Made by a program: the position numbers and the translations under genes. The notes under the pieces were generated by a model. It had not been told where the DNA came from and did not search any database. It saw nothing but the letters and a program-made list of their open reading frames with translations. DNA of 64,000 nt. Source: Asterochloris sp. CNOR1. Taxonomy: Eukaryota; Chlorophyta; Trebouxiophyceae; Trebouxiales; Trebouxiaceae. The DNA is taken from contig OZ017747.1 in NCBI GenBank assembly GCA_963969365.1, positions 3,348,001 through 3,412,000 on the forward strand, in the 5' to 3' direction. Position 1 is the stretch's first letter; each line of letters starts with the position of its first letter. Positions 1 through 59,000 of this stretch are shown here, piece after piece.

Positions 1-3000
1 ACTCTGCTGGACCTGCGCAGTCAGCAGTGCAGAGGGGGCTTCCCAGACAACCTTTGTGGGTGCCTGGTCAAGGTGCAGCATTTGCTGTGCAGGATGTGCG
101 CAACGAGCGCTTTCGCAGGAGCCGGGAGGCTGCCAAACTGCTCACCCAGAAGCTGGTGCCTCCCAAGGAGCTGAAGGCCATGCATGGTGAGGCCAGGCGG
201 GCCGCCAAGGAGGGCAAGGAGGGCCCTGCGCCTCTGCAACAAATGGACCTGGGGGACTCGTCCCGCAAGGTCAGCCTTCGACCCAACAGCAGGCATGCCA
301 CTGGCTTTCTTGCTTTGTAACTTCTTTGATTGAATGAAAGGTAGTTCCGTGTCTTGTTGCAGAGCTGATACCACAGTGGAGGTGGCAATCACTAGATCGC
401 AAGGCTGCAGCCCCTTACAAGCAGTGTGCAGTGTGCTGATGAACAGGGCTGTCAGCCTGATGGCGTTGCCGTCAGTCCTCACCGACGCTGCACCACACCA
501 CCCAGGGCATTGCTTCAGTCAGGCAACTTGGGGCTGAGGGGTCCTTGGTGTCGCACAGGCATGGCAGCTGCATTCAGGTAAGAACCAATCTACCACTACT
601 CATGTGAGCTCTGCTTGCTTCAGGTGAAGGCCAGGATGGCCACCATCACAGACACTGCGGCAGCCCTGCAGAACAAGGCTGGCGGCTCCACTGCCAGTCT
701 TACCCCTGCCGACATGGCCCAGCCTTCGGAGCCCATCAATGGCAAGGCTGCTGCTGCCAGCAATGAGGACATCCTGCAGCAGCTGATGATCCAGCTGGAC
801 GCTGTGAAGCAGCTGTCCCAGAACTTCAAGGCCGAGGTGGCTGACTTTGGAAAGGAAGAGTGAGCAGAACTTCAGGAGTTGCATGAGCACCTGGCCTGGT
901 CACACCAGCGAGGCACACCTTTAGCAGGGGAGGACAAGCAAGCTGATGAGAAACCGTTGCTTGCCAAGAGCTGCTGCAAGGAAGGCTGAGCACCAGCTTG
1001 CTCTCAGCCTGCATGTCAGTCACATTGCAGGCTCTACCTGGCTGCTGCCTATGACTTGAGCCAACGAGAAGGCCACGTCTTCATGTGCATGCCATGCTGG
1101 AGGCCTCTGGTTCCCTGTGGTCTTGGCATCCCCCATGACTGCTGCCCTGAGCTGTCTGCAGGTACAGGACGGCGTGGCGGCTTGGCCAGGTGGGTGTGCC
1201 TGACGACGACCCCTACAAGAAGATGTACGACATTGGCCAGGACAGGGCCAAAGCCAGGGTCAACAAAAGCGGAAACTTGCTGTTCCATGGTGAGAGTGCC
1301 AGCAGCAGAGCTCGCTGCGCTTCCAGGGAGCTCTGCCAGGGCAGTGTGCCTGGACAGTTCTCATGTATTGCAACAGCTTCACCTGCCAGAATGGCTATGT
1401 TGACCTGAGAGTGCATGCTGGGATGTCTGCAAGCAATGACATTTGGACGAGGCGGCACCGTCAAGCAGCCTGGTGGCCCAGATGCAAGTGCTCTGGCAAG
1501 CTCAGCCCTGTGTGAGGCAAATGCTGTATGACCAACTGCATTGGTGTACAGCAAGCTGGCAGTCAGCTCTGGGTGCCTGACCAACACCCTGCTGCAGGAT
1601 CAATCTATTCCAGGGGTGGGTATGCTGAGTGCGGGACCCTGCTCAGTGAGGAGACTCAGGCAGCCCTGGCAGCTTGCGAGGGTCTTGTGCTGAAAGTGCG
1701 CGGGGATGCGCACAACTACACCTGCTTCCTCACCACAGGCAAGCCTCCAGCACCAGCTCCTGCGCTGGCAAGCTACCTTTGTGTGAGGACCACCTGGAGG
1801 AATAACCACAGGCGCTGACGGGCGTCTGGAACATGAGCTGCACGTAGCACTGCTGAGGCACCATACACACGTCTCACAGCTGCACCAGATCAGTCAATCC
1901 CTCAAGTATGCACCACTTGCTGTACCTGAGCATCAGGCGAGGCCTGCCATGCCCACGTCTGCGATGCCCGATTTGCTGCCTGGCATGCCCGCAAGCACTG
2001 GCCAGGCCTGCGTAGCCTCGCACCCCACACACTGCTACAGTCCCACAGGCATGGTCTTCTGACAGTGCGCTGCCTGTCTGTGGCTGCAGCATCAGGCAAG
2101 TCCTACTCGGCCCGCTTCCCCACACAGCAGGGCTATCAGAGCATCCGCCTGCCCTTCACCGTGTTCCGGCCAATGGATCCCTTTGACGAGGGCTTTGACG
2201 TCAAGGCCAGCCCTATCGTGCAGATGACTCTCAGGCGAGAACCTTAGACGGCCCTCCCATTGGCGCCTGATTGCATGTGTTGTGCTGTGCCACATCACTG
2301 GCATGTGCATGCTGCCTGCAGTGCAAGCACGCTGCCCTTTATGACTTGTCTGCTATGCTTGCATCGTGCACGGTGCTGCCTATGCCATCATTGAATGTGG
2401 GTCAACCTGGGTCCGCCATCGCTCATGGGTGCCAGCTCCCCTGATGGGCAGTGGGGCTGCAGCGCATGCTTGAGCATCAACAAATCGGTGCACAGCAGCT
2501 ACAAGTGAGTAACACAGTCTCCACGCAGCATGTCTGCCTGCTGCAGGTATGAGCCCCGTGCGGTGCGTCTGCCCAAGGTCATCCTACCTGGCGACGAAGA
2601 CAAGGCTGAGCCTCGCAGCGACAAAGACTTCAGCCTGGCCATTGACTGGATTCGGGTGAGGCATTGAAATCATGCAACTTTCTGCTGTGGGCTCAATATG
2701 TGGTGCGACTTGGGCCATGCAATCTTAGCCGCCTTACCATAGGTGACATCATGCGGGCTGCAGGCTGTGAGCTTTGTGATCTGCTCTCAGACATTTACAG
2801 ATTCCTTGCTGAGAGCATCGAGCTGTGATGGGTCCGTACAGTGCCTTGAGGGTGGCCTGCAGCCTCAATCAAGTGTGCCAGCACCATGAGGAGCTGCAGC
2901 CGGCGTAAGACTGCCTGCTTGTCATGTGATGCCTATGTGGACTTAATAAGTCTTCTGCTGACTGCAGGCATTTCCGTCAGCGCCAGAAGCCGACTTCATC

Positions 3001-3931: not shown

Positions 3932-4751
3932 CAACTCTCTTGACCATTCATACCGCCTACTGAAAGCAGGCTAGCACTTTTGAATACATGACAAGACCGA
4001 GACAGCTTGCAGTTGCAGAGTGCCGGCAGGACACCCTGCCGTTCTTGGATCCCATGGCTTAGTTCAGATGTGGCAGCATTTTTTGCTGGCCCACACAGCT
4101 TGCTGGAGAGGCAGATTACCAGATCAAGTCCTGACCCTAGTCAAAGCATGCTTTTGGCAGCCAATTACATGACCAGGATGTTTAGATGACTGCGCACATG
4201 TTGACCTCATAAACTCAGCCAAAATTAGTGGATGCAGCATGAGCTGCGCTCAGGTGGCTGAGGCAATGTGCCCCAGGAACAAGGAAATGAATGCAGAGAG
4301 GTGGGCTGACTGCGCAAGACTGCAGTTGAGCAAGGCAGGAAGCAGTACCAAAAATTGTGTGCTTGCATCAGGCGAGCTCTGCTGCAAGTGAGGCCCATAT
4401 GACAGAACACCAGGCTCAAGTGTCATAAACCCTGCAGCAGAGCAACAGCATTTTGCATGGCTTCCCTCAACAAGGCGAGCTCAGGCAGGGTTGCAGGCTT
4501 TGTGAAGAGGCAGGCTGATCTGCCTGTAATCACCAGATGCAGCCCTCACCGGCACTCGTCAGTCTCTGGGTTGTCTTCACAGTACGCTTCCAGGGGGTCT
4601 GCGCCGTTTGAGCTGGACTTGCCCTCTCCCTGCACATCACAGAACAGGCTGTATAGAGGTGTCAGGATAATGCAACATAGGGCTTCTTCAAATTTGGCGA
4701 TGTGCCTGGGGTGCCTGCTCAATTGATGCCAACCAGCATAGCAGCTTTTAC
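3932..4751. other. Intergenic, convergent 3' ends of HCF173 and PGK
   Basis: About 820 bp between two stop codons facing each other. I see no gene. The chlorophyte poly(A) signal TGTAA first occurs on the + strand at 4525-4529 (for HCF173) and on the - strand at 4165-4169 (for PGK), so the two 3' UTRs would cross by about 360 bp if these sites are used. Confidence 0.5.
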
Positions 4752-7700
4752 TTAAGCCGAAGTTGGGGCAGGTGCTGCCAGGCGCAGAGCCTGCAGTGAA
4801 GCTGAAAAGGGCCGGTATAGCCTACCTCGTCCAGGGCTGCCTTCCCCTGGCACAGCACAGTCGACTTGACAACAAAGCAACACACAGAAAGCCCACCTCG
4901 TCCAGTGCTGCCACACCAGGCAGGACCTTGCCCTCCAGCAGCTCCAAGGAGGCACCGCCACCTGTGCTGATATGGCTCATCTTGCTGGCCAGGCCAGCCT
5001 TCTCCACAGCTGCCACGCTGTCACCACCACCGATGATGGTGATTGCGCCCTGCAAGCCGGCCTTGCTACCTCAGCATGCGGGCCAGGGGCGGCTACCGTG
5101 GCAGAGCCCTTCCTGACACGCGCATACTTGACTGGCTGCTGGCCTGACAGGTAAAGCGTCAAGAGCACTGCTACATTGCAGCAGCTGTGCACTTGCGCAG
5201 AGTCTGTGTGTGTCAGGTGCACTGATGTGCATGCAGGCCAAGGCTGGTTAGGTCCTAGTCTTGCCCACCTTAGCGCTCAGCTCTGCCAGGGTCTTGGCCA
5301 CGCCAAAGGTGCCCTTGGCAAAGGCCTCAAACTCAAAGACACCCATGGGGCCTGTGGAGCAGGTAAACAGCTGCTTAGTGCTTTACAAAGGGACTGGACC
5401 TGATCATGTCGAACACTGCAGCAGGTGCATGGTGCAGCTGTCAAGCTGCTGAGGCAGCACGGCAGATTGGCTCAAGCAGAAGCCTCAACAGCATGCAGCA
5501 GGCCCCACCATTCCAGATGATGGTTTTTGCATCAGCCAGAGCTTCCTGGAAGGCTTTCAGAGAGTCGGGTCCAATGTCCAGACCCTGCAAAGCAGCAGGG
5601 GTGTCGTCTCAGACCTGCAGGACTCGCAAGTCAAGCAATATGGCGCCAGGGTCGGCTCCTCTCTCAGTGTGACTGGCGGGTGCTCACACCCGGTTTCTGA
5701 TATTCTTTCTCTGCAGGCAGGGCCTGGTGGGCAGATGCCGTCCTGACAGCTGCTGCTCGACTGCTGGAACACGATCAGTTGATTCACTACGCCAGCCTTG
5801 AGACACAGCCGGGCCAGGCCAGGTTAGCATGCCAGCCCACACAGTCCACAGGACTGCCATCAGCACATCAGCCAACAGCTTGCCAGACCTTGCTTTGGCA
5901 CACACCCATGCCCTGCTACCTTTCGACCACAGCATGCAAAGGGGCCCCATGTGTCTGGCACATGAACTCTGTTGGCTGAGATCTGCTCCTGCTCATGACC
6001 ACAGCCTGGCTGTTGGCATTCCCAGACCAGCTTAAAGTTGAGAGCACTGCCCATCGCTCACCATCCAGCCGTCAGGGATGTCGCCTGCGGCCACGACCTG
6101 CGTCTTGGCATTCTCATCAAACTTGTCGGCGGCCACGATGTCAGTGGGCAGGATAAACTCCACCCCCTTCTTCTTGGCCAGCTCCTCCAGGGACTTGGCC
6201 AGCTCCAGCTTGTCGTCCTCCACCAGGGAGCTCCCCACGCTCATGCCACGCGCCTTGTAGAAGGTGAAGATCATGCCACCACTGCAGGCACGAGGCCACA
6301 CCAATGTCTGATGTGCTGGAGGTGAGACGCTGGCAAGGCGGCGAGAATTCTGTGCCGCCTCTGCAGCGCAGGGAGAGAGGCGCCCTGTGACATGGGGTCC
6401 TCTGGTGCAGGTGCCTGCTGGGGTGGACGCTGCAGCTGCCGGTAGCCTCCAGGTGCTGTGCACTGGAGCCCAGCGCATGTCTGAGTTTGAACAACCTTCA
6501 GAAGTGCAGCAACCCATGTCGCAAGGGCAATACGCGCAGGCTCATGCATCTGCAGCCTGGCGGGACAGGCTGCTTGTTACAGGAGGTCCCCGCCGCTGCA
6601 TACAGGAAGCCTTCTGTTCAGAAGCTACATAGGGGCCTGCAGCGGGGCAAGCTTGTGCTCCTCCCACATGTGGACCTTGGCGCTGCTGTGCTGACATCCC
6701 AGCGGTGGCATACAGGACAGGCGTCTGCATCACTATGGGGTGAGGTCCTACTTCCTCTGCTTCCATTGCATGCAGCCCTTGTCTCCGTAGGGCTCACTGC
6801 TGCAGGGTCAGGTGAACAACGCCCCTGCAAAGGCGCTGCCCCCAGCTCACCCCAAGATGATCTTGTCGGACTTGTTGATCAGGGACTCCAGCACACCAAT
6901 CTTGGAGGACACCTTGGACCCACCCACAATGGCCACAAAGGGACGCTTGGGGTTGCTGACGGCACCGTCAAGGTAGTCCAGCTCCTTCTGCATCAAGTAT
7001 CCTGCCCGGAGAGAGAGGAGGGCACTCAGCAGAACGAAGGCAGCAGGCAGGCACAAGCCCCAAGAAGCAGGTCTGATCTGGTGCTGCGAGGCAGGCACAG
7101 CGGTGCCGCAGTGTTGCTTTGGAAGTCAGGCAGGGCTGCTGTGCCACTCTGCCTGAGGGCCAGCTAAGCCAGCAGGCGACCTGTTGCTGCCAGTTGCTGC
7201 GGAGTTCCAGGCAACTGATCAGCTGAGAACATGTCCAAGCAGAGTATCCTGCTGGCCAAAGAGCTGCCGTGGTTGGCGTGCGCACCTGCCACAGATGGGT
7301 GCAGGTACTTTGTGACGCCCTCTGTGGAGGCGTGTGCCCTGTGGGCTGTGCCAAAGGCGTCGTTCACAAAGATGTCGGCGTTGGCGGCCAGCTGCAGGCA
7401 GGCACAGGGCCGCTTGCAGAGGGGCAGTGCAGGTGGGCTTGCAGTGCAGGCGGGCTGCATGGTGAGGGCCCCCGGCCACTGCAGCCTGCCACCGGGGTCA
7501 CCAGAAAACTGGCAAATCTTGCTAGCAGGGGTACCTGCAATGGCGCCTTGCCCTGGGGCGCCTGGCAGTGCACCTGTCCTCTATCAGGGGCCCCACAAGC
7601 AGCAGGTCTGGTGACCTGAGCTGTGCATGGCGGCATGACCCCATCAAGCTTGCTCGTGATGTCTGACAGCCCTGCGCAAGGGGATTACCCCACCTTCTTT

Positions 7701-9539
7701 GCGAACTCGGGGTCGTTCTTGGTCTCCTCCTTGTAGAAGCGCACATTCTCCAGAATCAGGACCTGCAGGGGCATGGGCATGTGTCAGCACGAATGGGCAC
7801 CTGCACACCTGTCTCACTGTTGCATAGACCTTGCTACCTGTGCAGGACAGACAAGATAAACAGGCAGTCTGGGCCGCTGATTCATGAGGAGGGGCTTGCT
7901 GGAGGGCCAGAGCTCACAACCTCCTGTTGCCATTGCAGGGCCCTGCCATGCTGTTGTGGGCTGGTTGCTTCACAGCAGTGATGCTGCTGAGGCATCAGCC
8001 AACCTGGCCGTTCTTCAGAGCCTTGGTCTTCTGTGCGACCTCCTCGCCGATGCAGTCATTGGCCTTCTCCACCTGCAGTGAGAGCTTGCTGCTCAGCAGA
8101 CTGCTGCAGCAGGCAGGCTCTCAGATGCCAGGCTGGGCCGTCCGGCAGGGCAAAGCGTTGCCTCAGAGAGAGCAGGCACTGCATGACATGGATGCTCACT
8201 GGGGCGCCTGGCACAGCAGAGCGCCACTGCAAGGCCAGGCCAGGCGCCTAGCAGGGCAAGGCAACAAAGAGGCAGGCAGGGCCCTAGCTTGGGTGCTCAC
8301 TGTGATGCGGAGGAGCTCAGCAAGGCACATAAGCAGGCAGGCCAAGCTGGGGGCTCACTTTTGTGCCGAGGAGCTCAGATAGGCGGGGGACGACGGGGGT
8401 CAGACGGAACTTGTCCTCTGGGCCATCCTTTGGGCGCCCCTGCGCACAGTGAGCACGGCCTGAACAAACGCAGCCCTTGCGCTCCTCAGCGGTCGCTGAG
8501 AGCTCTCCTCAGTCACAATGCAAAGGTATGGCTTCCCTTGTCTCTGACTGCGGCATTCTGCATGCCTACTGAGGGCCCCTGCATGTAGGTAGACACCGCA
8601 GCGAGAGGGCGTGCTGCGCTTCAACCCGTGCTTGCTCCAGGCTGCTGACTGGACGTCGCATCAGGTCTGCACCTGTACAGGAGGTGCCTAGAAACAGGCT
8701 GACTGCATGAATGGCGATGCAGGGATGCTACTTTGCATGGCTGCCCGCCTGCCTGCCTGCCCATTGTCCCTCTGCCCCAAAAGAAGGCACCGCCTGCTCG
8801 AGCAGCAGCTACGGCTTCCTCAAGCTCCTCGCCTCTGTGGTCTTTGCTGCACATATACAAAAGGCCAAGCATACTGCTTGACGATGGCCTTGCCTGGCAA
8901 CCTCCCTCTGCATGCTGATGCAGCAGCCAAAAGTTCTCATATGCATCAGCCAGCCGGAGGGGTCACCTTGTGCCTTGCAGGCAGTAAGAAGACAACCCTT
9001 CTCAAGCAGACCACCAGGTCCTTGCTGAGCACCACGACAGATGATTCCTGCGTGCAGCCGCCATGCATAGCACATGCCGTCATTCATGCTAATGCCATCT
9101 GATGCAATATGCACGGCCTCTCTGTTGCGGGCCCTCGCCCCTGCCTCACCAGATGGGAGGTCAGCAGGACCTTGGCGCCATTGTTTATCAGGTACTTGAG
9201 GGTGGGCACAGCCGCCCTGATCCTGGTGTCATCTGTGATCTTCTGGTTCTTGTCCAGGGGCACGTTCAAGTCTGCCCGGACCAGCACGGTCTTCCCCTCC
9301 AGGTCAGACTTGCTGAGGTCCCCGACATACTTCTTGGCACAAACGGTTTGCAGGGCTGCCCGGCTCCTAGACACGACCTGGGTGCTGACGGCTGACGAGA
9401 AGATGCTGGAGCCTGCGTAGATGGAGGCCCTGCGGCTGGCCAGCCTCATGCGCCGAGTGGCCACGGGCATGCACCTTGGGGCATTGCAGGGCTTGCTGCA
9501 TGCCACAGGAGCACCTCTTTTGAGCAACATGGTGCTCAT
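4752..9539 (-). CDS. PGK1: Phosphoglycerate kinase, plastid-type, 11 exons
   Basis: Transfers phosphate between 1,3-bisphosphoglycerate and ADP; in the plastid it serves the Calvin cycle. Exons (5' to 3' on the - strand): 9539-9150, 8439-8359, 8072-8004, 7762-7694, 7391-7286, 7001-6851, 6281-6062, 5584-5509, 5351-5269, 5049-4897, 4790-4752, giving 478 aa in one frame. About 70 N-terminal residues rich in Arg, Ser and Ala precede [20 protein letters not shown], which fits a chloroplast transit peptide. Visible motifs: [80 protein letters not shown] and the nucleotide loop [11 protein letters not shown] with STGGGASLE. The end reads [21 protein letters not shown]; the last 11 residues are an unusual extension. 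The intron before the last exon repeats the end of exon 10 (4821-4841 against 4892-4912), and the intron after exon 2 repeats its donor edge. Confidence 0.96.
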
Positions 9540-10139: not shown

Positions 10140-13100
10140 ATGGGCGCTTACCTCAGCAGGCCTAAGACAGAGAAGGTATGCTCACAGCCTGGAATTGTTA
10201 TTCACTGCGACTTAGTCGCATCGCCGTGATGAATGCCTTCTGTGCAGGACTCTGCCGAAGGCGAGAACGCAGACTTTGAATGGGGAGTCTGTGCCATGCA
10301 AGGCTGGCGCATGGACATGGTGCGCTGCACTTCATGCTGGGCTGCCGGGGGGTTTGTGCTGCAGACGTTCAGAGTCCCTGCAGTATCGCAGGCAGCCACT
10401 CTTTTTGTGCAGCCTTCACCTGCCAGCTTGGCACCACTGAGCTGCTTACCCCTGAAGGGGCCAAACCTGTTAGACAACAGCTTCAGGGCCTCACCTGCCG
10501 TGGCAAACCTCCTGTTGCAGGAGGACGCTCATGCCATTGAGTTGGACCTCCAGTCGGATGGCAAGCCCAAGGCCAGCATGTTTGGAGTCTTTGACGGCCA
10601 CGGCGGGAAGGAGGTGGCACGCTTCACAGCTATGCACATTGTGAGCTTTGATTGTAGACCTGTGCGCAGCAGACAACTGCACTGCCGCCGTGCAACAGCT
10701 GATGTGGCAGCCATGCTGCCACCTGTTCCCACCACCTGGAGTAGGCCAGCCAGAGGCCTGGTGATGCCGTCAGCACTGAAGCCACACATGAGGCCATGTG
10801 CAGCTGCCTCCTGATGCACTGGCCAAGCCATCCAGTGCTCCCACTGGAAAGTCAGCAGCAAACATGTCCTGTTCTTGCTGTTCAGGCCAAACAATTGCTG
10901 GGCACCCAGCAGTTTCACCAGAGCCAGCTGAAGGAGGCCCTCGTGGAAACATACCTTGGGCTGGACGAAGTCATGGCGCAGGAAGAGACTCGGGAGCAGC
11001 TCCGCGAGCTGGCAGGGGGGTCCTCAGAGAAGGGCGCGGATGCCGAGTGAGCCTCGGGGCTGCGCATGTCAGCTGCGCTGGCAGGCTGCATGCTGCTGAG
11101 GTTACACTGCAGCAGGGAACGGCAACACAAGCTTGAGCTGCTTCTGGTATGCCAGCGCTGATCTTTCTGTTATGTACGAGGGGGGGGATCAGCGGGAAAA
11201 GACTTTGCAATCGTGCGGAGGGGTGCATCGCTGTCCCCTTTGACTTTGTCCATAAGAACGACCCATACCTCTGCCTGGGTGGCACATGAGGGTGGTGACA
11301 CCGCCAAGGCCTGGGGCCTGCTGTGAACTACTTCTGGCACGTGCAGGGTGGAGAGCGTGCAGGGTGACCTGCCTGCTGAGCTGATGGAGGCCCTGAAGAA
11401 GCAGGCGCGTTCAAGTTACCTTGGGTCCGAGGAAGACAGCGACGAGGAGGACCCAGCTTTTGACCCTGACGTTGATGACGATGCCGAGCAGCAGGCCTCA
11501 GGCGAGCAGCAGTACACGCAAGGGGCCGACTGCGTACGCCTGCGTGAGGGTAGACTGGTCACTTGGAGGCATGCTGCTACAGATGTGGAGTCTGAAGCAA
11601 ATGAAGATGCTGAGCAGCAAGCCTCAGGTGTGCAGCAGTGAGCTGGACATGCTTTTTGTCATGGCTGAGCGTATTGAAGAGCAGTGCGCTCCTCCACCCT
11701 GCCCCAGGGACAGTGCCAAGCAATTGGTTCTCAGGCCAGCAGCATGCACCAGGGCTTTGAGAACATGTCATCTACAATCAAGAGGCTACAGTCAAGTGGC
11801 TACCATCTACAATCAAGAGGCTAGAGTGGTGGGGTGCAGCCTGTGGCCCCCGCGCGGAGCACACCGTTCAAGAGCAAGCGTGTCGGTGCACGAGGCTGTC
11901 GGCCGCTGGTGCTGGCCAGCCTGCTCAAGTGACAAAGGCTTTCCTTTGCTTGGGTAGCATAGGACTGCCCCTTTGTGACTCCCAAGGTGTACATTGCACT
12001 GCTGCAATGTCAGCCACTGCAGCTGTTGCAGTCCTGATCCAAGCAGCGGGATGCTGCCTGCAAGTTTGAGCAGACGTGCCCCTGCCCTCACCCCTGCCAT
12101 GCCTGCAGATGAGGCGGCCTTGACCAACCAGTTTGAGGCTGCTGCAGACATCAACGAGGAGGATGCACAGTCGCCCCGTGCAGGCGCCAGCAGCAGCCCC
12201 AGGAGGAAGTCGCTCGGCAAACGGGACTCGGGAGAGATGGACAGCCCCAAGCTTGGCTCCCTGGGCAAACGCAGTTCGGGGGAGCTGCTGCAGCCGGGCG
12301 ACGGGCCAGGTCTGTGCCAGCTCTTTCTCCTGAGGGGTGTGCATGGAGCCCAGGCCTGGCACATGGCGGCAGGCTGACTGACAGGTGCAGAGAGTGGTGC
12401 ATTGCTGAGGCTGCGCACTGGGAGACACCCCGTTGCGTGTCTTGTTGGGTGGAGATGCATCTGTGGAGCTGTGCCCGGCGGGCCACACTCTGGGGCTCAA
12501 CGTGTGCCATACTGAGCTGCCTGGCGTGTCAAGCAGCCATCTGGCCTCCCACTGGTCTGCATGGCCCAGCTGTTGTGCCTCTTTGGAGGCCTCACCCAAA
12601 GTTTGCATCAGCAATCAGCTAGCTCGTCAGTCAGCAGTGTACTCGTCAGGACACACAACGTCACTGCTGCAGGGGAAGTGTGCCTCCGTGTGGTGGGCCT
12701 TGCTCCAGCTATGGTCAGGAGCACCTGCTCACGTGCTCAAGTGTGTTGCAGAGGAGCAAGAACGAAAGCGGGCCCGTGGGGAGGATGGCCCCAGTAAGCA
12801 CTCGCGACTCAACAGCAGCATCGCCAGTCGCAAGGTCAAGATCCGGACCGAGCCCCTGTTCAATTTCAGCAGCAGCGGGAGCGATGCTCGCGCCACTTCT
12901 GTGGCTGACCTCATGGAGCAGGTCACCAACTCCGACCCAGAAGGTGAGTGGAGGCCTCAGGGCAGGGCCCTTGCTGAAGTTGCATGCAGTTCCAGAGCCT
13001 GGCTTGTGGAGGTTGTGGGAATGCCTGCTTGCAGCCACGCTGCAGAATGTCTCTGGCTGTTACCTGTCTGGGCTGACGCTTGCTGGGTGCTTGCCACCTG

Positions 13101-19819: not shown

Positions 19820-19925
19820 GTCAAGCAGCTGCTTAGATACAAGAAGGCAAGTGAAAACCTTCCCAGATGTGCTGACATGAAGCGAGCCCGGGAGCAGATG
19901 AACAGGCCCCACTGAAAGCCTTTAC
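19820..19925. promoter_or_regulatory. 106-bp divergent promoter (coiled-coil gene / lipase gene)
   Basis: Only 106 bp separate the two proposed start codons, so both 5' UTRs and a shared bidirectional promoter must fit here unless either start is wrong. No named element recognised. Confidence 0.4.
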
Positions 19926-37824: not shown

Positions 37825-37859
<35 letters not shown>

Positions 37860-40581: not shown

Positions 40582-43500
40582 ATGGCACCAAAGAAGGGGG
40601 CCAAAAAAACCAAGGAGCAGCTCGCAGAGGAGAAGAGGCTTGCTGAGGAGGCTGCCATAGCAGCTCAGGAAGGTACTATTCGGTGTGCTGAGCCAAGCTG
40701 CATTGCAAGAAGGCAGTTGTGATCAGTGGTGCTGCAAACAGTCTGCTGTGCACCTGACACTATCCGTGACACTGCAGCTGTCAGAGAGCAGGAGCGTCGG
40801 GAGCAAGCGCGCAAGGATGCTGAGGCAGCTGCACAGCAAGCACTCATCAATGCTCAGCAAGCTGCTGAAGCTGAGCGCCTGCAGCATGAAAGGTTTGTGG
40901 GTGCCAGACTGTGCAGAAGCAAGCTCATGGCACCTTCAGGGAACCTGTCGAACCCACAACCATCACTACCGTGTGCAGGGAGGAGGCTGCTGACATGATG
41001 GCCCAGCTGGAGCACAGACGCAGAAAGGTCTGAATGACTTGGCATGCTGATAGAGCCTGTCTGTCAACTGTGCCCGCTGGAACAGCAGCTTGCCTGCGCA
41101 AACCTGGGTCATGCATCCCAGGAATGCAATTCTGCTGTCAGCTTCCTTCAGCTGAGTCAGAAACTGGGCCTTTGCCCAATGTGAAAGGTGCGTGCCCCCT
41201 GCGCTTGACACACGACTGTGCGCCGTAGGAGGAGCATGCAATGCACGCTGCCAGGCAGTGGGAGCGCTTCCTGTCTTGCACTACCCTGCCGGAGGCCACC
41301 AAGGTTGTAGCCATGAACGACTATCTCAACCAGGCATGCTCACTTGAGCCAGTGGAGAGCATGCAGGCCGCTCTGGCTACCTGTCAGGTCAGCCCTGATG
41401 TACGGCCGACCTTCTGCACTCGATGTACAGAGAGCATAGCCCTGGCAGCGAGCACAGGCCAGCTTCAGGCATGTCATCAGCTTCCTCAAGCTGTGCACAT
41501 TGCCGCCCAACCCCACCAGCTCGCTGCAATGCAGCCTCTCGTCGTGTGACATGTTGCAAGGCACAGAGCCAGCAGCGGCTGAGCAACAGGTGCACTTCCT
41601 GATGCGGTCCAGCTGCCCTGCAGGAGCACATGCAGCTGCTCCAGCAGTGTGAGGCCCTGCTCATGCTGGCTCACCACCAGCAGCAGCAGGTGCAGGCCGT
41701 CACGCAGCAGCAGCATGTGCAGCAGCTGTGGACAGCCGTGCAGCACACGCTGGATCTGCAGAGCGCACACATCCTGCAGGTTGGAGGCATGGCCAACCTA
41801 TTCATGGTACTGTAGCATCATTATGTTGCAGCTCATTGAGCCAAGCACAACATGTGTTCAACCTAGAGCATGGTAGGCGCCCATACTCAAGCCTGTGACA
41901 AGGCTGATCTTCAGGCTATCAGCAAGCACCTGGGCAGAATCCGAGTGCCCTGCCAGCCTGTACCTGCAGGAGAGTGAGGACTTCCTGGATGAGGCAGGGG
42001 ATGTGCACCTGGCAGCGCAGGTTGCCTCCTGCCGGTGGGGTCTGCACATCAACGCCTCCAGGAATGCCCGCATTCGGCAGGTGGAGTGGCAGGAGCTGCA
42101 GCTGGCCCTGGAGGTGGGCTGTAAATGGCATCAAGTTCACAGTTTCTGGCTTCTTTTGAGGCTGCCTGCTGCCCCCATGTGTGCATGCCTCACAGAGGTT
42201 TCACACGCCTTTGCCGCTGCAGCCTGATCGCGCTGCTTTGCAAGGACCCCACGAGCGTTCAGCCTGTTGCAAGCTAACAAGTCTGGGCCTTGCAGCTGCC
42301 GAGAAACCTGGCGCTGGCGCCCGTGGCTTTGCAAGCCACGTGGCTGGACCATGATCCCTATGGCGCAGCAGCCAGCACAGACATCATGGCTGTGGGTGCT
42401 CTGCTGAAGCTGGAGCTGCTGGCCCTACCGCCGGCGCCTGTCCACATCAAGAATTGGACGCTGCACCAGCCTCTGGACCAGCCAGGGAAGCTTAAGCTGC
42501 ACAGGTGAGCCCGCCTGCTTACCCAGCCACCGTCCAATCAATTACCCTTGGCCCTCTGCTGTGCAGCCTGGTGCACTGCCAGCCACACCTGAAGTGGCAG
42601 CAGTACCATAGGCTGAGTCAAAGGATTGCCATATTGCAGCACATGCGGGGCCATGCAGCTCTGACCTGTGCGTCACTGCCAGGTGCGATGCTGGGCTGTG
42701 CAGGCTGCCATACCCCATTCCTCCAGCAGGAGCAGACCCTGCCACGTGGGTGAGTGAGGAGGAGCCCCCTCCCATCGGCGTGACAGTGGCAATGCCCACC
42801 AATGTTTGCCTGGCAGAAGCAGAGCAGCCGCAGGTGGGTCTCTGAGTAAGCGTGTTGGCTACCTGAGCGTCATCACGGCAGCTTCAGACAGGTGCTACCT
42901 TCCCATCACATATGCGGCTGCTGTTAAGCGGCCCTGCTGCAGAAGCAGAGCAGCCCCACCTGGATCACAGGGCAAGAAGCGCTGCTGCGTGCTGAGATGC
43001 CTGGTGTCTTTCATGTCAAGCAGTCTGATCCATTGGTGGCAGTGAGCTCTGCCCGCCAGCTGACTGGCAGCAGTGCTGCAGATGGCAAAGCAGACTGGCT
43101 GCGGGGCTGCAGGTGGGCTTGTGGGATGCGTCCAGTGGGACTTGGGTGGCGCGGGGCATCACAGACATCTCCGTGGAGGCTGGCATGCTGTCCTTCCAGG
43201 CAAGGTGACCCCCCACGGCTGGTCTCTGCATTGGCGGCTGCATCCCTGCTGATGGCTTGCTGCTGCATGTAAGGAGTGCTGAGTACCCAGATGCAGCACT
43301 GCTGCTCTGCTCAAGGACAGGCCTGGTTGCATGCCCACAGGACGGTTGGGACCCTGGCCCTGCTGCAGAAGCGCAGCCGGCTACTGCCCTTCAAAGGGTG
43401 GAATGTCCGGCCCACTGGCGGTCGTGGTGGCAGCTCTGCAGCCGTCACTGTGCTGACAGGTCAGCCCAGGTGGCCTCTGTCATTCAGCACTGAGCTGTAT

Positions 43501-45451: not shown

Positions 45452-48400
45452 ATGCCATCAGACGATTTCAAGAAGGGTGCCTGGACAGTTGATGAAGACG
45501 AGCTGCTGAGACGCCTGATCAAGGAGCATGGGGCCAGGAACTGGTGAGCCTGTACTTCAACAAGGCTCAGAGACACAGCACGCATGCAGCCATAATACCC
45601 GCTGGCCTTCTTGCATATAAGATCCTGGAGCTTCTGCAACAAGCTGGTGGGCCTGAGCACCCGGCTCACGTGAGGTCGCCTGCGGCCGCCTGCAGGTCCA
45701 TCATTGCAGCAGGCATCAGGGGGCGGAGCGGCAAAAGCTGCCGGCTGCGGTGGTGCAACCAGTTGAACCCAGCAGTCAAGCGGGGCCCCTTCTCTGAGTG
45801 GGAGGATGCGGTCATCATCTGCTGCCACAAGGTGTGGCCAGAGCCACTTCCTCCCTGCCTTGTGTGGTTCACTATATGTCAAGCTTTCGCAAGAGCAGTT
45901 CTGCCTGGACAGGGCGGCACCCAAGGCTGCCTTGACATTGGCTTCCACACTTCTCCTTCCAACATGCACAGGCCTGCACACAGCTTTGTATAATGGTGTG
46001 CACAGAGCCAACCTCTGTGCTGCACAAGCTCCTCACGAGAATGCTATTGTTCTGCTGCAGCTGCATGGCAACAAGTGGGCCAACATTGCTAAGACTCTGC
46101 CCGGGCGCACCGACAATGCGGTCAAGAACCACTGGAACAGCACGCTCAAGCGCAAGCACCAGTCTGGAACACTGCGCAACCACTTCCTGGACAAGGGGGT
46201 CACCCTGGCCTGGCTGGAGGAGCACAAGGAGGTGAGGCAGAGTACCTGAGCTCAGTGCTGGGTCTGGGCAGGACTGCTTGCCGTGTCATGCACGAAGCAC
46301 GAAACGCCAAGCAAGCACAGGTCGGCCTCAGCAGGACAGCCTGCCAGGTTCAAGCATAGAATAGGCCTAGTGGTGGAGCACAATGCAACAGCTATATCTG
46401 GGCTCAAGTCTGAGATCACCAGGACTGCCTGCCTCAATACATCTACCTGGCCTAGCCGGAGGAACACCAGGCAGAGGGTGTGCCTGAGTCAAATTCCTGG
46501 GGTCACAATGACTGCCTGCAACGGCAACCACATCGCTGGCCTGGCTGAAGGATCAAAACAAGGTGGCACAATGTACCGGTGCACAGTGTTGGGTTCAGCA
46601 GGGCTGCCCGCCACAGCACACACAGGTCCAGCTGATCATTCTCAGAAAGGCGTTGCAAAGGGTGGCTCTGAGCTCAACCTTGGACTCAGCAGGACTGCCT
46701 GCATCTGCCCCTGTCTGCCTGGACAGGCTGGTGGAGCTTCAGGAGATGGGCTGCCGTTCTGGAATGACTGGTGCCCTGTGGGGATGGACAGCTCTCTCCC
46801 AGGGAGGCAGTGCCAGACATGCAGTGCTGCCAACCACTGCCACCATATGCTGCACTTTGTGGATAAGAGCATGCCCCGACTGCTGGAGCACAAAGGGCTA
46901 TGACGCAATGCTGGGCTGTTTGCCATCCGCTTCTGTTGACCATGCATCATTGGCCAGGCACAGCTGCCTGCAGGCCTCCAGCGTGCTATTCTGGCTGTGG
47001 TTGACACTGGCTACAGGAGGACAGTGCTGTCCAGGCCAGCCAGGCACAGCTCTGCTTCAAGCTGCACATAGCCTGCAGGTGTTTGCAGCAGACTGTGCTG
47101 CTGCTGTCAGGTGCTCACCAGCTGTGACAGGTGTGTCTGCGTCAGAGTGGGCTGTTTGGCCTCATGCCTCAGCTGCAGCATGTGTCAGCGTGTGCTCAGC
47201 AGATGGGGCAGCATGCGTGCCTGCCAGCCCGAAGGCACATTTGCAGCTGGTGGACAATTGGAGCCCTGCTGTGGCATGGCACACCCCAGGACATCCAACC
47301 TGCCCTGTTTCCTTGCTCTTCTGTTGCGCCCAAAGCAGTGCACCCATCTCATCTCCTGTGCCCTGCAGCATGGCACTTCCAGTTTTGCACACACCCCGTG
47401 TGCTTTACTGCAGCTGGACTGCTATGCAGAGGTTGGTGTCTGGCCCCCACCCTGGGCGTTGCACACACTGGATCCTACCAGCCTTGCAGCTAGACAGCAA
47501 TCAGAGGTGTCAGAACGTCTTTTGCGCCAGACCGTGTCGCCATTTTATGCCATGTGTCCCGCAGCTGGACAGCCATGCAGAGGTGTCAAGATCTTTTGGC
47601 CCCGGACCTCGTGGCCACTTGATGCCATGTGTCCTGCAGCTGGACAGCGATGCAGAGGTGTCAGACTCCCTGGGCATGGGGACAGAGGGGGCCTCACAGA
47701 GCCATACAGCGCCCTACAGCCAGACGCCAGCAGACAGCCTGGGTGCTGCACGAGGCCAGGATGATCGCGATTACCACCCCGTCCTGGGGGATGATGTGAC
47801 GAGCCGCGGGGCAGGGAAGCGGGCGTACGGGACACGCAGCAAGGGGCGGCGCGCGGTGAGGCATTGCCCCAGGGCTGGAGTGGTCCTGGCGGCTGTCATG
47901 CTTCTGTGGCCTCGATGTGCATCTACCGACAGCGCACAGCACTGCTGACAGGCCAAGCTGCAGTGTTTTGGGAGGCTGCGCAGGACAATGAGGCCCTGCG
48001 GCAGTAAGTGTACCGCTGTGAGGAGCTGAGCTGACACACCCTCAGCCTGCTGCTGCAGTCAGCCAAGCGGGAGGCTCAGGAGGACCGCGAGGAGCTGCAG
48101 CAGCCAGGGGCCTGGGGGCAGCCGCAGGTGCAGCAGGGGGGCCCTTGGCTGGGCTGGCAGCAGGACATATCTCCACAGGGGTGGTCCACCACAGCAGCTG
48201 CCCAGGTGGGGCGCCAACTGGGGTTGCATGCTTCTACGGCAGCCTGCTGGCCTGGCTTGTCATCCCCAGTGCTGCATAGTGCTGCATGATTGTTGTGAAC
48301 AGCTTGCTGCCTCCACGATGTTTGGTTGCTGTGGCCAGGTGACAAGCAACAAGGTGGGCCCTTGCTGCCTGCAGGGGCCTGGCACTGCAAACCGCCCCAG

Positions 48401-52568: not shown

Positions 52569-53069
52569 ACCTACGGGTCCCCATGGAGTCTATCTTGCGC
52601 TTCCTGCAGTGATCATTGCATCTCAGCTGTGGCAGGCATGAGGCAGGCCCCAAGTAGCATGGTCAGAGTCATACTTGGATGTGACCTCTGCAGTGTCAGC
52701 AAGACCTGCCTCTTCTTCGGAGGAGCTGTCATCCACACGCGAGCCATGGGAATTGACTCGTGGCATCTCTTCAAGTATTGCAGAAGTCCTCCAGATCTGT
52801 GTAGCAAGATATTAGACATCATGGGTGTCAGACATTTGACCTACGTAGGTCCAGTGTAGACATGGAATGCTCAGCTCGAGCTCCGCCATGGGGCTCCTGC
52901 ATGGGCTGCGCTAACATCATGCTCGGGTGAGATCGAGTGAGGATGTGAATTTGCATGTAATGTGAATCACTGCAAAGCATAGCATGGGGACTAGTCAGAG
53001 CTGTCCAGAGGCAAAGCTGCCTCCCATCGTTGCATCGCACACCTTATACTGACTCACAGCACGTGAAGG
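52569..53069. promoter_or_regulatory. Divergent region, AP endonuclease / REV3
   Basis: About 500 bp between two starts that point apart. I see no exon with support; a - strand open frame (52822-52613) has no homology or splice support. It probably holds two promoters for DNA repair genes. Confidence 0.4.
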
Positions 53070-56000
53070 ATGCCTGCCCTCAGCAGTAGCCAGCAAGCAA
53101 ACAGCGGCCAGCCCCTGGCCTTCCGCCTGGTGGACATAGACTACTATCTGGCCAAGCCCCTGCCTGGCCTCGACGTCTGCTACTCTCAGCTGGAAGGCAC
53201 TGCAGTGGAGCAGGTCCCTGTCATCAGGGTGTTTGGCTCCACGCCGGCTAGGCAGAAAGTCTGCATGCACATGCACAGGGTCAGTCTGGTTGCCGCTCAC
53301 AGCTGGCAGCCACTGTGGCAGCCTACTGACTGCATTACATCTTACCCATATGCCTGCAGGTCTTCCCATATCTGTATGTGTCCTACACAGACGATCTGCC
53401 AGATGATGAGGCTGATGGTGAGCAGCTGCAGCCTCAATGCTGACGTGTACAACGAACTTGGACGCCAGCTTCAGCAGGCATAGCTCACCCTGCAGCAGCG
53501 AGACACAATGCCTGACAGCCCCCCTTGCTGGCGCCCTGCATGTCTGCGGCTCACCTCCTGCCTGCAGCGCGACGCAGCAGCAGCAGCAGCAGGGCTCACT
53601 GCCTGGACACCTTGTTGCTCCCACGCTTTCCAGAGCATGACTCAGCTGTTGCCTGCAGCGCAAGCTTTCCTGCGGCATCTGGCGCATGGCATTGAGCTGG
53701 CTCTGAGCCAGAGGCTGGAGCCTGGCTCAACACCCAAGCAGGTCAGCACATTGGGGTGGACAGCTTTCTCGAGGGAAGAGTCAGATGACCTTTCAGTCAT
53801 GTGGCACTTGCTGTTTGAAGGCTGTGGTGGCCAGGCACCACTTGGGTCCCAGTGAGGCTGATGCAGCATGGCACAGAGTTCTGCAGGCCACCTGAGAGTC
53901 CCAGCATCATGCTCTCAAACAGCCGCTGCATCCCAATCTTGGCACTGCACAGGTCAAGCCTGATCCATCATTCGCTGCAGGTGGTCCTCTCCACCGAGCT
54001 GGTGCTGGCGCGGCCTTTTTACGGCTATCATGCTGAGGACAGGCTGTTTGTGAAGATCAAGCTGTACAACCCCAGCCACGTCAACAGGATTGCCACGCTG
54101 CTGCAGGTCAGCTGCTGCATGTGGGTGCTTCCTGCGCCTGCATGCCTTGCTGCACAGTGCTGTGAGGGACAGGCTTGACACTTGATGTCGGGTGCACAAC
54201 CCCTTGTGCTGAGGCCGCAGCAGCAGAGCAAGCAGCGTGCTGATGGGCCCCGGCTGGCTGCAGACTGGGGCTGTGCTGAACAGGGTCTTTGAGATCCATG
54301 AGTCCCACATCCCCTACTTGCTGCAGTTCAAGGTGAGCACTGTCAGTCTAGGTCTCAAGCAAAAAAATTGGTGGGCTCAGTCCAGTCGTGTGCCCACTCA
54401 ACAACAGCTTGACGTCTGTCTTGACTAAGGATGCAACATCAGCCACATGTCTCTGCACTACTTCTCCCTGACTCTCCCACAGCTTACGCTGCCACATCTG
54501 TGTAGATTGATTTCAATCTGTACGGCATGGGCTTCATCAGGCTGAGGGAGGTGCTGTTCCGGGACCCTGTGCCGCAGCACAAGCGGCTGCGGCACCAGGG
54601 CTGGCATGAGCCTCCGACCATTATTGCCTATGAGACAAACTCAGGTGAGGTTGCAGCTGCTGACCAATCATCAAAGATCAGAGTGCACTCCAATGTCTCC
54701 CAGCATCAGTGGGCTGGGCACCCGCGACCGCTGCAAACTGTGCCTTTCTCAATGTAAACGGCTTACCTGCTGTGAACAACCGAAAGGTGCACATTGCCCG
54801 GCGCAAGCCAGAAAGACATGTAGTCTGAGCGGCTCTGGCTGAGCTGTGATGTCTTCTGGGCCTGCAGGGGAGGCGGCTGGGCAGCTGCCGCTGCACAATG
54901 CGCCCAACACTGTCCCAGCCAGCCCCGGGTCCAGCATGGTGGGCAGCCTCATGAGCAAGCACTGGACAGCCAGCACCATCAAACCACAGTGGCTGTGGAG
55001 CAATGTGCCGGGGGCAGGGTGAGGGGCAACCCTCAAGCATCCTGGCAGGCAGCAGCAACACTGCCCATATGAAGTTGCTGCACAATGGGCGCATGCTGCA
55101 TTGGGTTGCTTGGCAGCACACTGCCAGCATGCTAGCTCCTGGGTTGCTGCAGAGGCGCCTGGCCTGTCGCCCTGCAGCACGCCCCCAGTCTGCGGGCATC
55201 AACAGGGCAGATCGCGTAGTCCACGGTCCTCATGCTGTCGTCAAACCTGCATCTGCTGAGTAGGGAGCTCTTTTTGACAGATGCACGAGCAGCAGGCGTC
55301 TCATGCATGCCTGAACACAGCACAAAGCCAGCGTATTGAAGGGCTGGCTGCAGGCACCCTCTGCGCATGAGCAATGTGGAGCTGGAGCTGGATGCCTGCA
55401 TGGAGGACATTCTGAATCGAGACGAGGCAAGGCGGCCTGCCTTTGCCAGCCCTCAGTGACTGCCCACTAACCTCCTGCAGTGGGTGGCTATTCAGCGTCA
55501 GCATCTTAGTCTGATCAGGATCTGTGGGCACACACAACACATTCCCTTCACTTTTGCCCATGCCACCATGCTCTATGTGTCTTTGAGCAATTGACCTGTT
55601 CCTGCAGCTCCCAGCCCACATTCCTTTGACCAGCCAGAGCATCTTGCACAGAGCGGCCCTACATTCTGCTTTGCAGCTGGTGTGCATGTCAACGTCTCTG
55701 ACACTGTTCCACAAGAAAATTCCCACAGATCCTGCATCACAGTCTACTGCTGTGCTTTGCTCTGCAGCTGGTGCACGACACTTAAGCAGGCCTCAACATG
55801 TATTGTCTGTCAGCCACACTGTAGGGCACCAATGGGCCTTCTGTCTGGCTCAACAGCTGCCGCACCTGCCCCTTGCCAAGGCAGTCCCTCACCCTCGAAT
55901 TGATGATGATCGCTGCTCTGGAACCCACTGCTATGCTCTGATGTGCAGCTGGTGCACTTGCCACAAGCCGCCCAATGTTGAGCTGATACAGTCCCTACAC

Positions 56001-59000
56001 CAAGGCACCCACTGCTGTGCTTTGACCTGCAGCTGGTGCGCATGCCCTTGGATGAGGCGGGCCCTGACATCAAGCTGGTGGAGTCTCTGCAGCCCATGTG
56101 GGATGAGGAAAAGCAGCGCCTGGGAGCCAGCCCCCCTGCACCCCCGGCAGGGCCTGAGCGCGTCCCTCAGGTGCTGTGCCAGCACGTGGAGACTGTGCGG
56201 GCCCAATTTCAGGTGCGCAGGTGGCCTGCTGAACTCGGGGAACGTTCCCTGCATAGACAGGCAGGGCCCAATCCAGTCCTTCAGGCGGTACGTCAGCGAA
56301 AGAGACAGTGCGGGCGAGATCACCTGTGCGTGCTCGGTTTGCTGAGCTGGCTCTTGTGCTGCAGCGATTGAGGTGTGTGGTGCTTGATTCATTTGAGTGC
56401 AGCGCTGCCTTGTGCAACCAGCTTCCAAGGGGATCTGCATGCCGCAAAGGCGAGGCTGGCATAACAATGTCTGCCATGAAGGGACATGTTGTCTCCAAGC
56501 CCACGCTGCAGTGCCCCAACGCTGCGTTCCGTGTACTGCATGCTGCGTGACCCACTCTGAGCGACAAGCCTCGCCATGCAGAACATTGTGGATGAGCAGC
56601 AACAGCAGGCAGATGCTGCCATGCGGTCACAGACAGACCAGCAAGGCACGCCACAGGCCACACCGCCAGCTGCGCGGACACCTGGTGGCTCCACCCAGCA
56701 GCTCCCAGGCGCTCCACACCCTAGTCTGCTGCTCAGTACACCCCGTGCCAATCTACTGACGGCCACGCAGCAGGCCCCATCCAGCCCCTCGGACGCGGAC
56801 AGCCCCCTGAAAGAGCTGCGCAGGTTGTGGGAGCAGCAGGCGCAGCATCGAGATACACCACCTGCTGTTGCGGACACGCCTGGCCCAGCCCAGCAGATGC
56901 AGGCAACTCAGGTGAGCGTTTCCTCTGAGTCCAGATACTAAGAGCACAGGTCGCCTTGCAGAATTGCACATGCACATGCAGGAGATGCTGTTTTGCATGC
57001 ACATCCGCAGGCGGCCACACACGCACAGGACAGGCATCCCTGCAAGGGCTGCAGAGCAAATGATGAGGTCTTGCACCCGACTGGCTACAACCTAATCAAC
57101 AAGGATATGCTGCATCAGCTGCTTGAATGGTCAGGCGGCCCTGCAAGGCAGTGCATCATCCTGGCATGCAGCTGCAAGAGGACTGTGACACTCTCCGTTC
57201 TGTACTGGAAGCTGAATGCAAGCTGCTCTGGCTGCTTCAAGACCCTTGGAGCATGCTGTGTGAGCATGACCAGCCGCTTCCCTAGTGAGGCAGTGCTGCA
57301 AGCCACCGGAAGGCCCTTGGTGTCTACCCGGCCAAGCAGGATGCCAGGCATGAGCTGCTCCAATGGCACTCCAGTACTGCAAGCCCATGTCAGGGTGTTA
57401 TCATTCCCCAGCCTGCGACAATTGTAAAGCCTTCCCGCCCATGCAGGACGCTGAGCGCGAGCTGCACCAGCTGCTCCAGTGCATGCGCGAGGAGGGGGTT
57501 CACCAAGAGGTGGAGGACGACTGGCTGCTGGCCCTGGCAGAGGCCGCTGGGCCAGGCTCCCAGAGGCGGCTCAGCTCTTCGCAGCAGGTGCCCCTGCTGC
57601 TTCAGAAGGCGTGCTGTGTGTCCACTGCCCATTATGCATTGCACCTGGCAGAGCACTTCTGTAGAGCAGTGCCATGCTGCCAGGCAGCAGCAACAGCAGC
57701 CTTGGCTCCCGTCCTGTGAGCAGCACACTCTTGCTGCTCCCTGTGCACCCCTGTGCTTCTGACTCATGACTTCGAGGGCGCTGTCCACAGGAAGCGCTTC
57801 AGCGCATGCGCCTGCAGCGCATGCATTCGCTGTCACAGTCCCAGGCAGAGCTGGAGGCGATCCTGCACTCTGGGGGACACCCTGGTGCAGATGAGGGCCT
57901 CAAGGTACCCCAGCCAGGCACACACCCTGCCACAGCGCCATATCAAGCAGGAGCAGCACAGCCCGCTTCTGGTGGCCTTGCAACAGGGCAGCCAGCAGGG
58001 TCAGCAGGCGGGCCGCCTGTCCAGCACGAGCCCACCTCCCCTGAGCCGTGGGCGCTGCACCAGCTGCCCAACTCCACCCAACGGCGCACCAATGCAAGCG
58101 AGGTGCTGCGCCAGGCCACGCAGATGGTCATTGGCCCAGATGAGGATGAGGTGCACCCTGAAGGGGCCAGGGATGGCCTCACTGCAGTGCGCTCCCTGAG
58201 GGAGCAGCTGGACCAGGCTGCCTCACATGAGCATCAAGGCGGTAAACTGAGCTGCAGAAAGTTGCATGCTCCTGCACAGAACAATGGCGCCCCTGAGGGG
58301 CCTGGCCGTGACCACACGGGTGTGCGCTTCCTGCGAAAGCAGTTGTATCACGCTGCCTCACCCAGGTATGATTGCAATGACTATGTTCAAGGATACAAGC
58401 AAATTCTGCAGTTGCGCAGCAAATTGCATGCATCTCGAGGACCAAAAGGTAGCCTCACGGCTGCGCTGTCTCAGCCTCACAGTTGCGCTCTGGCTTTAGG
58501 AGCACCAGGATGCGCCTCTCCTGTGGGGCCTGGACACCATCATAGACAGCACCCATCACAGCCCCATGGGCGGGCCGAAGCAACAATGGACGGCGCTGCA
58601 GTTGCACATTGAGGTGCATGACTGATAGCTGCCTGCAGTCTCAGGAGTTTCAGAGAAGCGGAGCTGCCTGCCTGCCTGTTCTCACAAGACACTGTCTACA
58701 GATCTCATGCATGTGAGGCGCCCAACTGTGCGGTTGCCTGTTTCTCACAGCCTGTTGCCTGCCTGCAGATGCCCCAGACGGTCAGCCGAGTATGAAGCAG
58801 GGATCTCCAGACTGGTGGCAGCAGGCCTGGGGAGAGGACGAGATCCCACAGCTGGACGGAGCTTGGGACGAGGAGGGAGGGGCACCAGCTGACAGCGGCA
58901 GGCACCATCAGCAGCAACAGGGGCTTGCGCAACAGGCAGCAGGGCCATCTGGGCTTGCAGCTGCAGCTCCTGCTGCTGCAGTACCACGCCACCAGGCTGC

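Follow-up and report, generated by a model that had tools for sequence, protein, structure and literature searches.

The stretch of DNA analysed here, referred to as the window, comprises 64,000 nucleotides of Asterochloris sp. CNOR1 (contig OZ017747.1 of assembly GCA_963969365.1) and carries predicted genes for HCF173, PGK, PPM1G, CLC, RPN6, DNAI7, MYB and REV3, together with a gene that we take to be U2AF65-like. Pfam analysis of five predicted window proteins, two of them cut short, identified NAD-binding and CIA30 domains for the HCF173-like gene, PGK with CP12, PP2C, POL3_N with REV3_N, and Casc1_N with Myb, DNAI7 and MYB being fused in the gene model; the predicted RPN6 and CLC proteins match solved structures. 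The gene content (HCF173, PGK with a CP12-type tail) is presumably green-algal. An earlier note had claimed that in the eight named genes the intron beside an exon holds degenerate copies of that exon's end and its splice site, here called echoes, and the observation as a whole was confirmed: introns hold copies of their own exon edge.

The sequence base was 314 kb of the 56.4-Mb genome (21 contigs), consisting of the window, ten 20-kb stretches from nine contigs (C1 to C9), and 50 kb of held-out sequence from five further contigs. Exon borders throughout are predictions of a gene hidden Markov model trained on this one genome's own sequence, and those of RPN6 and CLC were set against solved structures. 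The model yielded 771 introns, with the acceptor CTGCAG/G and the donor CAG/GTGAGC (slash at the border), and over-called mini-exons. GC donors make up about 13% of the self-trained donor model in this genome sample, which is high if real. Predicted mini-exons were folded into introns, giving a set of 456 introns, 124 of which contain such merges, from which introns below 60 or above 1500 bp, weak splice scores, and exons shorter than 30 nt or weakly coding were excluded. In a gapped rank test, the own edge was ranked against 300 edges of other genes on the same intron, with p<0.01 counted as a pass; exclusion of introns below 110 bp or too close to a sequence end retained 394 of the 456 introns (45 of 49 held-out). 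Self-matches were scored without gaps (+1/-1.5), and stricter sets of 259, 308 and 374 introns were used in some tests.

Introns match the edges of their own exons

The rank test gave passes on either edge for 82 of 394 introns, where 7.9 were expected (77 in another random draw), for 11 of 45 introns in held-out regions outside the gene-model training (0.9 expected), and for 23 of the 114 introns tested in the window alone (2.3 expected; 22 in another draw). Acceptors passed in 9.9% and donors in 11.2% of the 394 introns, against 1% expected for each, and the p-value histograms suggest a true-echo share of about 22% for acceptors and about 16% for donors. The earlier note had pointed to the comparison with other genes' edges as decisive, and own edges proved the better match. 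All eight named genes contain at least one intron passing on at least one edge against the 300 other-gene edges: HCF173 (1739-2089, acceptor p=0.0018), PGK (4630-4896 and 8073-8358), PPM1G (11502-12108 and 13779-14397), CLC (28325-28803, 29651-30167, 30381-30688, 31589-31799, 32003-32281 and 32362-32843), RPN6 (37104-37765, 37983-38100, 38713-38913, 39002-39272 and 39423-39923), DNAI7 (donor p=0.0031), MYB (46232-47639) and REV3 (55427-56032, 56221-56581 and 56912-57446).

At score 13 in 259 strict introns, junction queries produced 12 acceptor matches against 1.2 expected and 13 donor matches against 0.6, while queries of exon sequence alone produced 5 against 0.3 and 8 against 0.4. Reverse-complement queries of the same introns gave 0 against 0.3 and 1 against 0.5, and mid-exon queries at this score matched in 0 of 214 cases against 0.4 expected and, for exon tails, in 2 of 226 against 0.3. 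Matches were observed in 98 of 456 introns, compared with 5.0 after shuffling. Without the merged introns the excess stands but is weaker, the match rate being 0.130, as against 0.379 in merged introns.

The copies lie on the side of the exon that had been described, acceptor edges being copied upstream and donor edges downstream. At score 13 or more, exon heads matched their own upstream intron in 13 of 330 exons and the next intron in none, and exon tails matched their own downstream intron in 20 and the previous intron in 1, giving 33 matches in the adjoining intron and 1 across the exon; at score 11 or more, the counts were 28 and 9 for heads, and 38 and 5 for tails. Echoes were present on both strands (28 of 244 introns on the forward and 41 of 212 on the reverse strand). 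The claimed spacing of 70-90 bp held in part: binned by 30 bp, lags fell most often into the class of 60-89 bp (38 of 186 pairs), but they ranged from 30 to about 300 bp, and edge matches had a median of 120 bp. Lags modulo 3 were near flat (13, 17 and 13 for 0, 1 and 2), as expected of intronic, frame-free copies. The suggested growth of divergence with distance from the exon did not hold up, since the nearest copy outscored the farthest in only 22 of 36 arrays, with a Spearman coefficient of 0.04 over 89 hits; in stitched L013, matching is stronger for the copies at 256 and 346 bp than for the nearer ones at 88 and 172 bp.

Several of the arrays are regular. Echoes are spaced at 98, 199, 309 and 399 bp in L011, and at 88, 172, 256 and 346 bp, with a weak one at 529 bp, in stitched L013 (acceptor 11350). 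In the MYB tandem array (47486-47665), units are 79% identical over 75 bp and echoes lie at 75, 150/151 and 226 bp, while the REV3 echoes have lags of 84, 265 and 356 bp. Beyond the matched core, flank identity reached at least 0.56 in 31.5% of 124 pairs, compared with 5.4% in the control. In MYB and L011, unit alignment makes a convincing case for head-to-tail contiguity of the first units, with the L011 units 0.69 and 0.65 identical to the junction unit over 99 bp; the remaining pairs are too decayed to judge.

The pass rate increased steeply with intron length, in support of the intron lengthening proposed earlier. In five classes from 110-180 bp to at least 500 bp (76, 101, 99, 67 and 51 introns), it was 3.9%, 7.9%, 22%, 25% and 53%, with 2% expected; search space is constant in this comparison, since the controls use the same intron. 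For unmerged introns only, the rate was 4.9%, 7.6%, 18.8% and 28.9% in four length classes.

Degenerate short-range direct repeats are common in the sampled genome when counted without annotation. At score 15 or more, the window contains 38 self-matches at lags of 30-329 bp, compared with about 1 around lag 5000 and 0 around lag 12000, and 264 kb contain 164 at the short lags versus 6 at lags of 4000-4299. In the full 314 kb, 186 direct versus 7 inverted pairs were detected at 30-329 bp, and 6 direct and 4 inverted pairs at 4000-4299 bp; these inverted counts led us to reject inverted templated insertions. At score 18 or more, the short lags hold 105 direct and 0 inverted pairs, with direct pairs numbering 5 at 400-699, 0 at 1500-1799 and 1 at 4000-4299 bp. 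The repeats thus share orientation and short spacing and are absent at long spacing, the pattern of short-range tandem duplication. Short-range pairs were found in four of five held-out regions (3, 4, 7 and 8 pairs), with none in L021.

RPN6 is the clearest case. In solved Rpn6 (8amz_Q), the counterpart of VKRLDDK directly follows the exon ending in ITKLLTE, which points to 38687-39272 as the true RPN6 intron. This intron contains a donor-edge copy (39096-39121) and an acceptor-edge copy (38755-38778), and the model exon 38914-39001 inside it is missing from the homologue. Acceptor 37982/37983 has three copies (Table 1). Gene predictors may therefore call echoes as mini-exons, as is shown for RPN6 and likely in MYB and REV3.

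Probable tandem duplication and alternative explanations

The echoes are real and widespread in the sampled genome, and repeated local duplication across splice junctions, as the earlier note had proposed, is supported on both strands. Recurrent short-range tandem duplication across junctions, in which the exon copy stays and the intronic copy decays, is in our judgement the probable origin of these sequence patterns. Short stretches, mostly of 60-200 bp, would be tandemly duplicated again and again. A unit straddling a splice junction would create a second splice-site copy, flanked by a piece of intron and a piece of exon; if splicing stayed with the copy beside the full exon, the protein would remain unchanged and the extra copy would turn intronic. 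Selection would hold the exon copy while the intronic copy drifted, so that an edge pair would stay recognisable for longer than a pair wholly inside an intron, and repeated rounds would give rise to arrays and longer introns. While the copies, their direct orientation and side, the regular arrays and the link to intron length are observed, we infer the order of events, the neutrality of the copies and their being left unspliced.

Intron interiors are duplicated as well, with matches in 39 of 456 introns versus 1.75 after shuffling. Random 55-bp interior queries passed at p<0.01 in 1.4%, 5.7%, 8.0% and 10.5% of introns by length class (the last being at least 500 bp), and edges passed 1.4 to 3.9 times more often. 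At score 12, a profile of 30-bp queries in 308 introns gave 15 matches (1.9 expected) and 11 matches (0.9 expected) at the junctions, and 3-6 (about 1 expected) at most interior positions.

Several results weigh against recurrent duplication with simple decay. Junction coverage in 505 introns exceeded that of the neighbouring interior 3-fold at acceptors and 4- to 6.5-fold at donors, whereas simulated uniform duplication with the exon copy slowed or frozen gave a ratio of about 1; by a simple argument, one frozen copy can explain at most an approximately two-fold junction excess. Edges accounted for 66 of 91 best matches (0.73), compared with 0.45-0.53 in simulations (p between 5e-6 and 6e-5 after background subtraction), and for 77 of 116 (0.66) when every class held by an intron was counted; for a different intron set, simulation had earlier given an edge/interior ratio of 0.83, against an observed 42 to 12 best matches. 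Matches wholly on the exon side made up 0.47, versus 0.24-0.35 simulated, an excess to which misplaced predicted borders, as in RPN6, contribute. To these are added the mid-exon tail matches given above and the units other than the first of MYB and L011, which are 0.46-0.69 identical in a gapped alignment without random control. Purely uniform neutral duplication, which fits most features but fails the junction share, was rejected, and the remaining junction excess may stem from annotation bias or reflect a real preference for junctions.

The copy-making process itself could be biased to exon-intron borders, through breaks, stalled forks or R-loops at splice sites. The coverage peak, the edge share and the 30-bp profile all favour such junction-directed duplication, but the interior excess is clear, also in introns of at least 500 bp, the borders are predicted, and the bias may partly reflect longer survival of the exon copy; we consider it unlikely, while giving it serious weight. 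We likewise put forward only tentatively that splice junctions are preferred sites of chronic local duplication and that introns in this lineage lengthen chiefly through stuttering of their own exon edges. If so, most long introns would be accordions of decayed exon borders, and a true junction preference would point to a connection of local duplication with splicing or transcription.

Echoes might also be functional, as alternative splice sites, decoys or duplicated exons under selection. Some retain a whole splice motif, as does the acceptor echo at lag 82 in stitched L009 (L010), and among junction-spanning echoes picked by similarity, a biased choice, AG was intact in 30 of 35 acceptors and GT/GC in 14 of 21 donors. 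Two further findings speak for function and add to the points against simple decay. The aligned codons of 35 echoes contain 1 stop in 244, fewer than roughly expected from drift, and the residues of CLC mini-exons 32682-32701 and 32774-32780, which had been merged into the intron, align gap-free to CLC-6. Since CLC-6 has residues there, something must code the stretch, and one or both mini-exons may be real exons or lie close to one; the array in CLC intron 32362-32843, whose p-value depends on merging its mini-exons, may represent duplicates of exon edges, coding in part. This case makes us slightly less confident in decay and slightly more in functional echoes. On the other hand, most copies sit in predicted introns, and in echoes found by exon sequence alone the splice dinucleotide was intact in 13 of 27 acceptors (AG) and 16 of 31 donors (GT/GC); a stricter score left 8 of 14 and 15 of 25. 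These fractions are as decay would give, and lend no support to the use of echoes as alternative splice sites, which the earlier note had raised. Splice motifs were not conserved above their surroundings (mismatches at 18 of 102 motif positions versus 60 of 399 elsewhere), mismatches of 30/283, 48/286 and 53/289 at codon positions 1, 2 and 3 indicate that the second position is not protected, and echo residues are missing from the RPN6 homologue. We consider it improbable that the echoes are functional.

In classical intron gain, an intron is born by tandem duplication of exonic AGGT, and the echoes would be the two copies. One clean case was found at stitched L011 15848-15961 (= L012 5848-5961, reverse strand), where the lag of 114 equals the intron length of 114 and the copies span donor and acceptor, so that this intron may have been gained by tandem duplication; DNAI7 42834-42942 resembles it, except for an offset between the lag of 126 and the predicted intron length of 109. 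Such donor-to-acceptor pairing occurred in 1 of 374 introns, and in 1 of 456 in the larger set, the commoner classes pairing one edge with the interior, which rules out classical gain as the general cause and leaves it a very improbable account of the echoes. Chance, in the form of shared splice consensus and base composition, has practically no standing: HCF173, the weakest example, would not stand alone, and of the 88 short-lag pairs in the window at score 12 about 20, roughly a quarter, are background, but, given the predicted borders, it is rejected by wrong-gene edges, which match far less although their consensus and composition are the same, by exon-only queries, which still match, and by the reverse complements and shuffles.

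Relation to known systems

Tandem genomic duplication is described, in an excerpt of a review, as a genuine route of intron gain that has been shown in vivo (PMC3443670). In the potato RdRp gene, according to portions of the report, a tandem duplication crosses an intron 3' end and an exon 5' end and made a new intron and an exon insertion, and a figure legend places another tandem duplication, of 83 bp, within the first intron (PMC4974935). As portrayed in those portions, the potato duplication resembles the present ones in copying acceptor, tract and exon head, but is a single recent case, whereas degenerate copies are found here in many introns, mostly seeming silent inside an old intron. 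For Drosophila, 25 novel intron positions were identified by species comparison and related, in the excerpted text, to intron sliding or tandem duplication (PMC2891723); there too, exonic sequence beside splice sites was duplicated and one copy intronised, whereas the arrays described here lie inside existing introns.

The mechanism is therefore of a known kind, while its variant and density were not found described: a genome-wide habit of junction echoes was not reported among the matches listed in literature searches that had most subscription papers outside their scope, and no description of chronic exon-edge echoing in existing introns, or of its link to intron length, was found in the literature searched.

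Intragenic duplications with intronic and exonic segments are reportedly common in eukaryotes, as Gao and Lynch are said to have described in 2009; we know of no junction-centred decayed echoes or intron-length link in that work. Genomes show an excess of short-spaced direct repeats, arising as close direct repeats or short local duplications, which to our knowledge have not been tied to splice junctions. Introners are dispersed mobile copies that cause mass change of intron content; unlike these, an echo matches its own exon edge, and in our comparison, which was limited to other genes' edges against each intron, own edges were in excess.

A detectable copy is present in about a fifth of the tested introns and in about half of the 51 introns of at least 500 bp. 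Copies this frequent make the source of intron length in the genome directly testable. Recurrent junction duplication offers intron lengthening without mobile elements, and the exon edge provides a fixed reference for dating each intronic copy, and thus a readable record.

Individual genes and neighbouring repeats

The functional edges and their echoes in the window are given in Table 1. Of the shifted exon borders foreseen by the earlier note, one candidate emerged: PPM1G 11583-11627 looks like an extra in-frame 45-nt mini-exon from a 126-bp duplication, and the translation of 11347-11639 repeats DAEQQASD.

Table 1. Functional exon edges and their copies in the window (positions numbered from the first letter of the window).
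Gene	Feature	Position	Strand	Details
HCF173	intronic echo of acceptor edge	1929-1938	+	decamer AGCATCAGGC, identical to 2088-2097; weakest example
HCF173	functional acceptor edge	2088-2097	+	decamer spans acceptor 2089/2090
PGK	intronic echo of donor edge	4819-4841	-	lag 71; 21/23 identical to 4890-4912; p printed as 0.0000
PGK	functional donor edge, exon 4897-5049	4890-4912	-	
PGK	intronic echo of donor edge, exon 8359-8439	8290-8326	-	lag 58; score 19.5; p=0.0028
PGK	functional donor edge	8348-8384	-	
PPM1G	donor edge of exon 11347-11501	11475-11513	+	score 26.5; lag 126
PPM1G	copy of donor edge 11475-11513	11601-11639	+	predicted end of in-frame mini-exon 11583-11627
U2AF65-like	intronic echo of acceptor edge	24520-24545	+	lag 84; score 16; p=0.0028
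U2AF65-like	functional acceptor edge, exon from 24613	24604-24629	+	
CLC	copy of acceptor edge	32674-32706	+	overlaps predicted mini-exon 32682-32701; lag 162; score 20.5
CLC	copy of acceptor edge	32765-32797	+	overlaps predicted mini-exon 32774-32780; lag 70; score 18
CLC	functional acceptor edge, exon from 32844 (AVGAAAMLGGMT)	32835-32868	+	exon aligned to solved CLC-6
RPN6	intronic echo of donor edge, exon 37766-37982	37566-37595	-	lag 198; score 17.5; donor p=0.0016
RPN6	functional acceptor edge (GCTGAGATTGACACC)	37970-37993	-	acceptor 37982/37983; exon aligned with 8amz_Q
RPN6	acceptor-edge echo	38052-38074	-	copy of 37982/37983
RPN6	acceptor-edge echo, model exon 38101-38142	38126-38149	-	copy of 37982/37983; the exon's 14 residues are a gap against 8amz_Q
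RPN6	acceptor-edge echo	38243-38266	-	copy of 37982/37983; lag 273
RPN6	functional acceptor edge, probable exon start 38686 (GTGAAGCGGCTGGATGAC)	38677-38700	-	VKRLDDK start placed by 8amz_Q alignment
RPN6	acceptor-edge echo	38755-38778	-	lag 78; score 19
RPN6	donor-edge echo	39096-39121	-	lag 172; score 21
RPN6	functional donor edge (ITKLLTE)	39268-39293	-	
RPN6	functional acceptor edge (CTGGAGGTGTGC)	39411-39438	-	
RPN6	acceptor-edge echo	39485-39512	-	lag 74; score 15.5
RPN6	acceptor-edge echo	39532-39559	-	lag 121; score 18
DNAI7	donor edge of exon 42704-42833	42813-42840	+	24/28 identical to 42939-42966
DNAI7	downstream copy	42939-42966	+	lag 126; sits at predicted next acceptor
MYB	acceptor-edge echo	47408-47433	+	lag 226; score 21
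MYB	acceptor-edge echo	47520-47588	+	period 75; score 44; most alike pair in window
MYB	functional acceptor edge	47595-47663	+	acceptor 47639/47640
REV3	acceptor-edge echo	55746-55776	+	lag 265; score 24
REV3	acceptor-edge echo	55920-55962	+	lag 84; score 25.5
REV3	functional acceptor edge	56004-56046	+	acceptor 56032/56033

The predicted PGK protein ends in a CP12-type tail (ADPLEAYCEDNPETDECRVYDT) encoded at 4416-4629 on the reverse strand. Pfam analysis of the C-terminal PGK part of the model placed PGK at residues 1-185 and CP12 at residues 206-229, the latter with an E-value of 1.6e-8, above the cut-off. If PGK and CP12 are transcribed as one gene, the product would combine a Calvin-cycle enzyme with a redox tail of its own; for this fusion, one general review was among the literature matches listed.

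A short-range repeat array at stitched L001 13967-14384 (= L002 3967-4384) begins in a predicted intergenic stretch, so that local duplication may not be confined to genes. Strong repeats with lags of 36, 45, 54, 63 and 72 bp also occur inside a predicted exon at L013 8628-9005, where they correspond to a repetitive protein segment.

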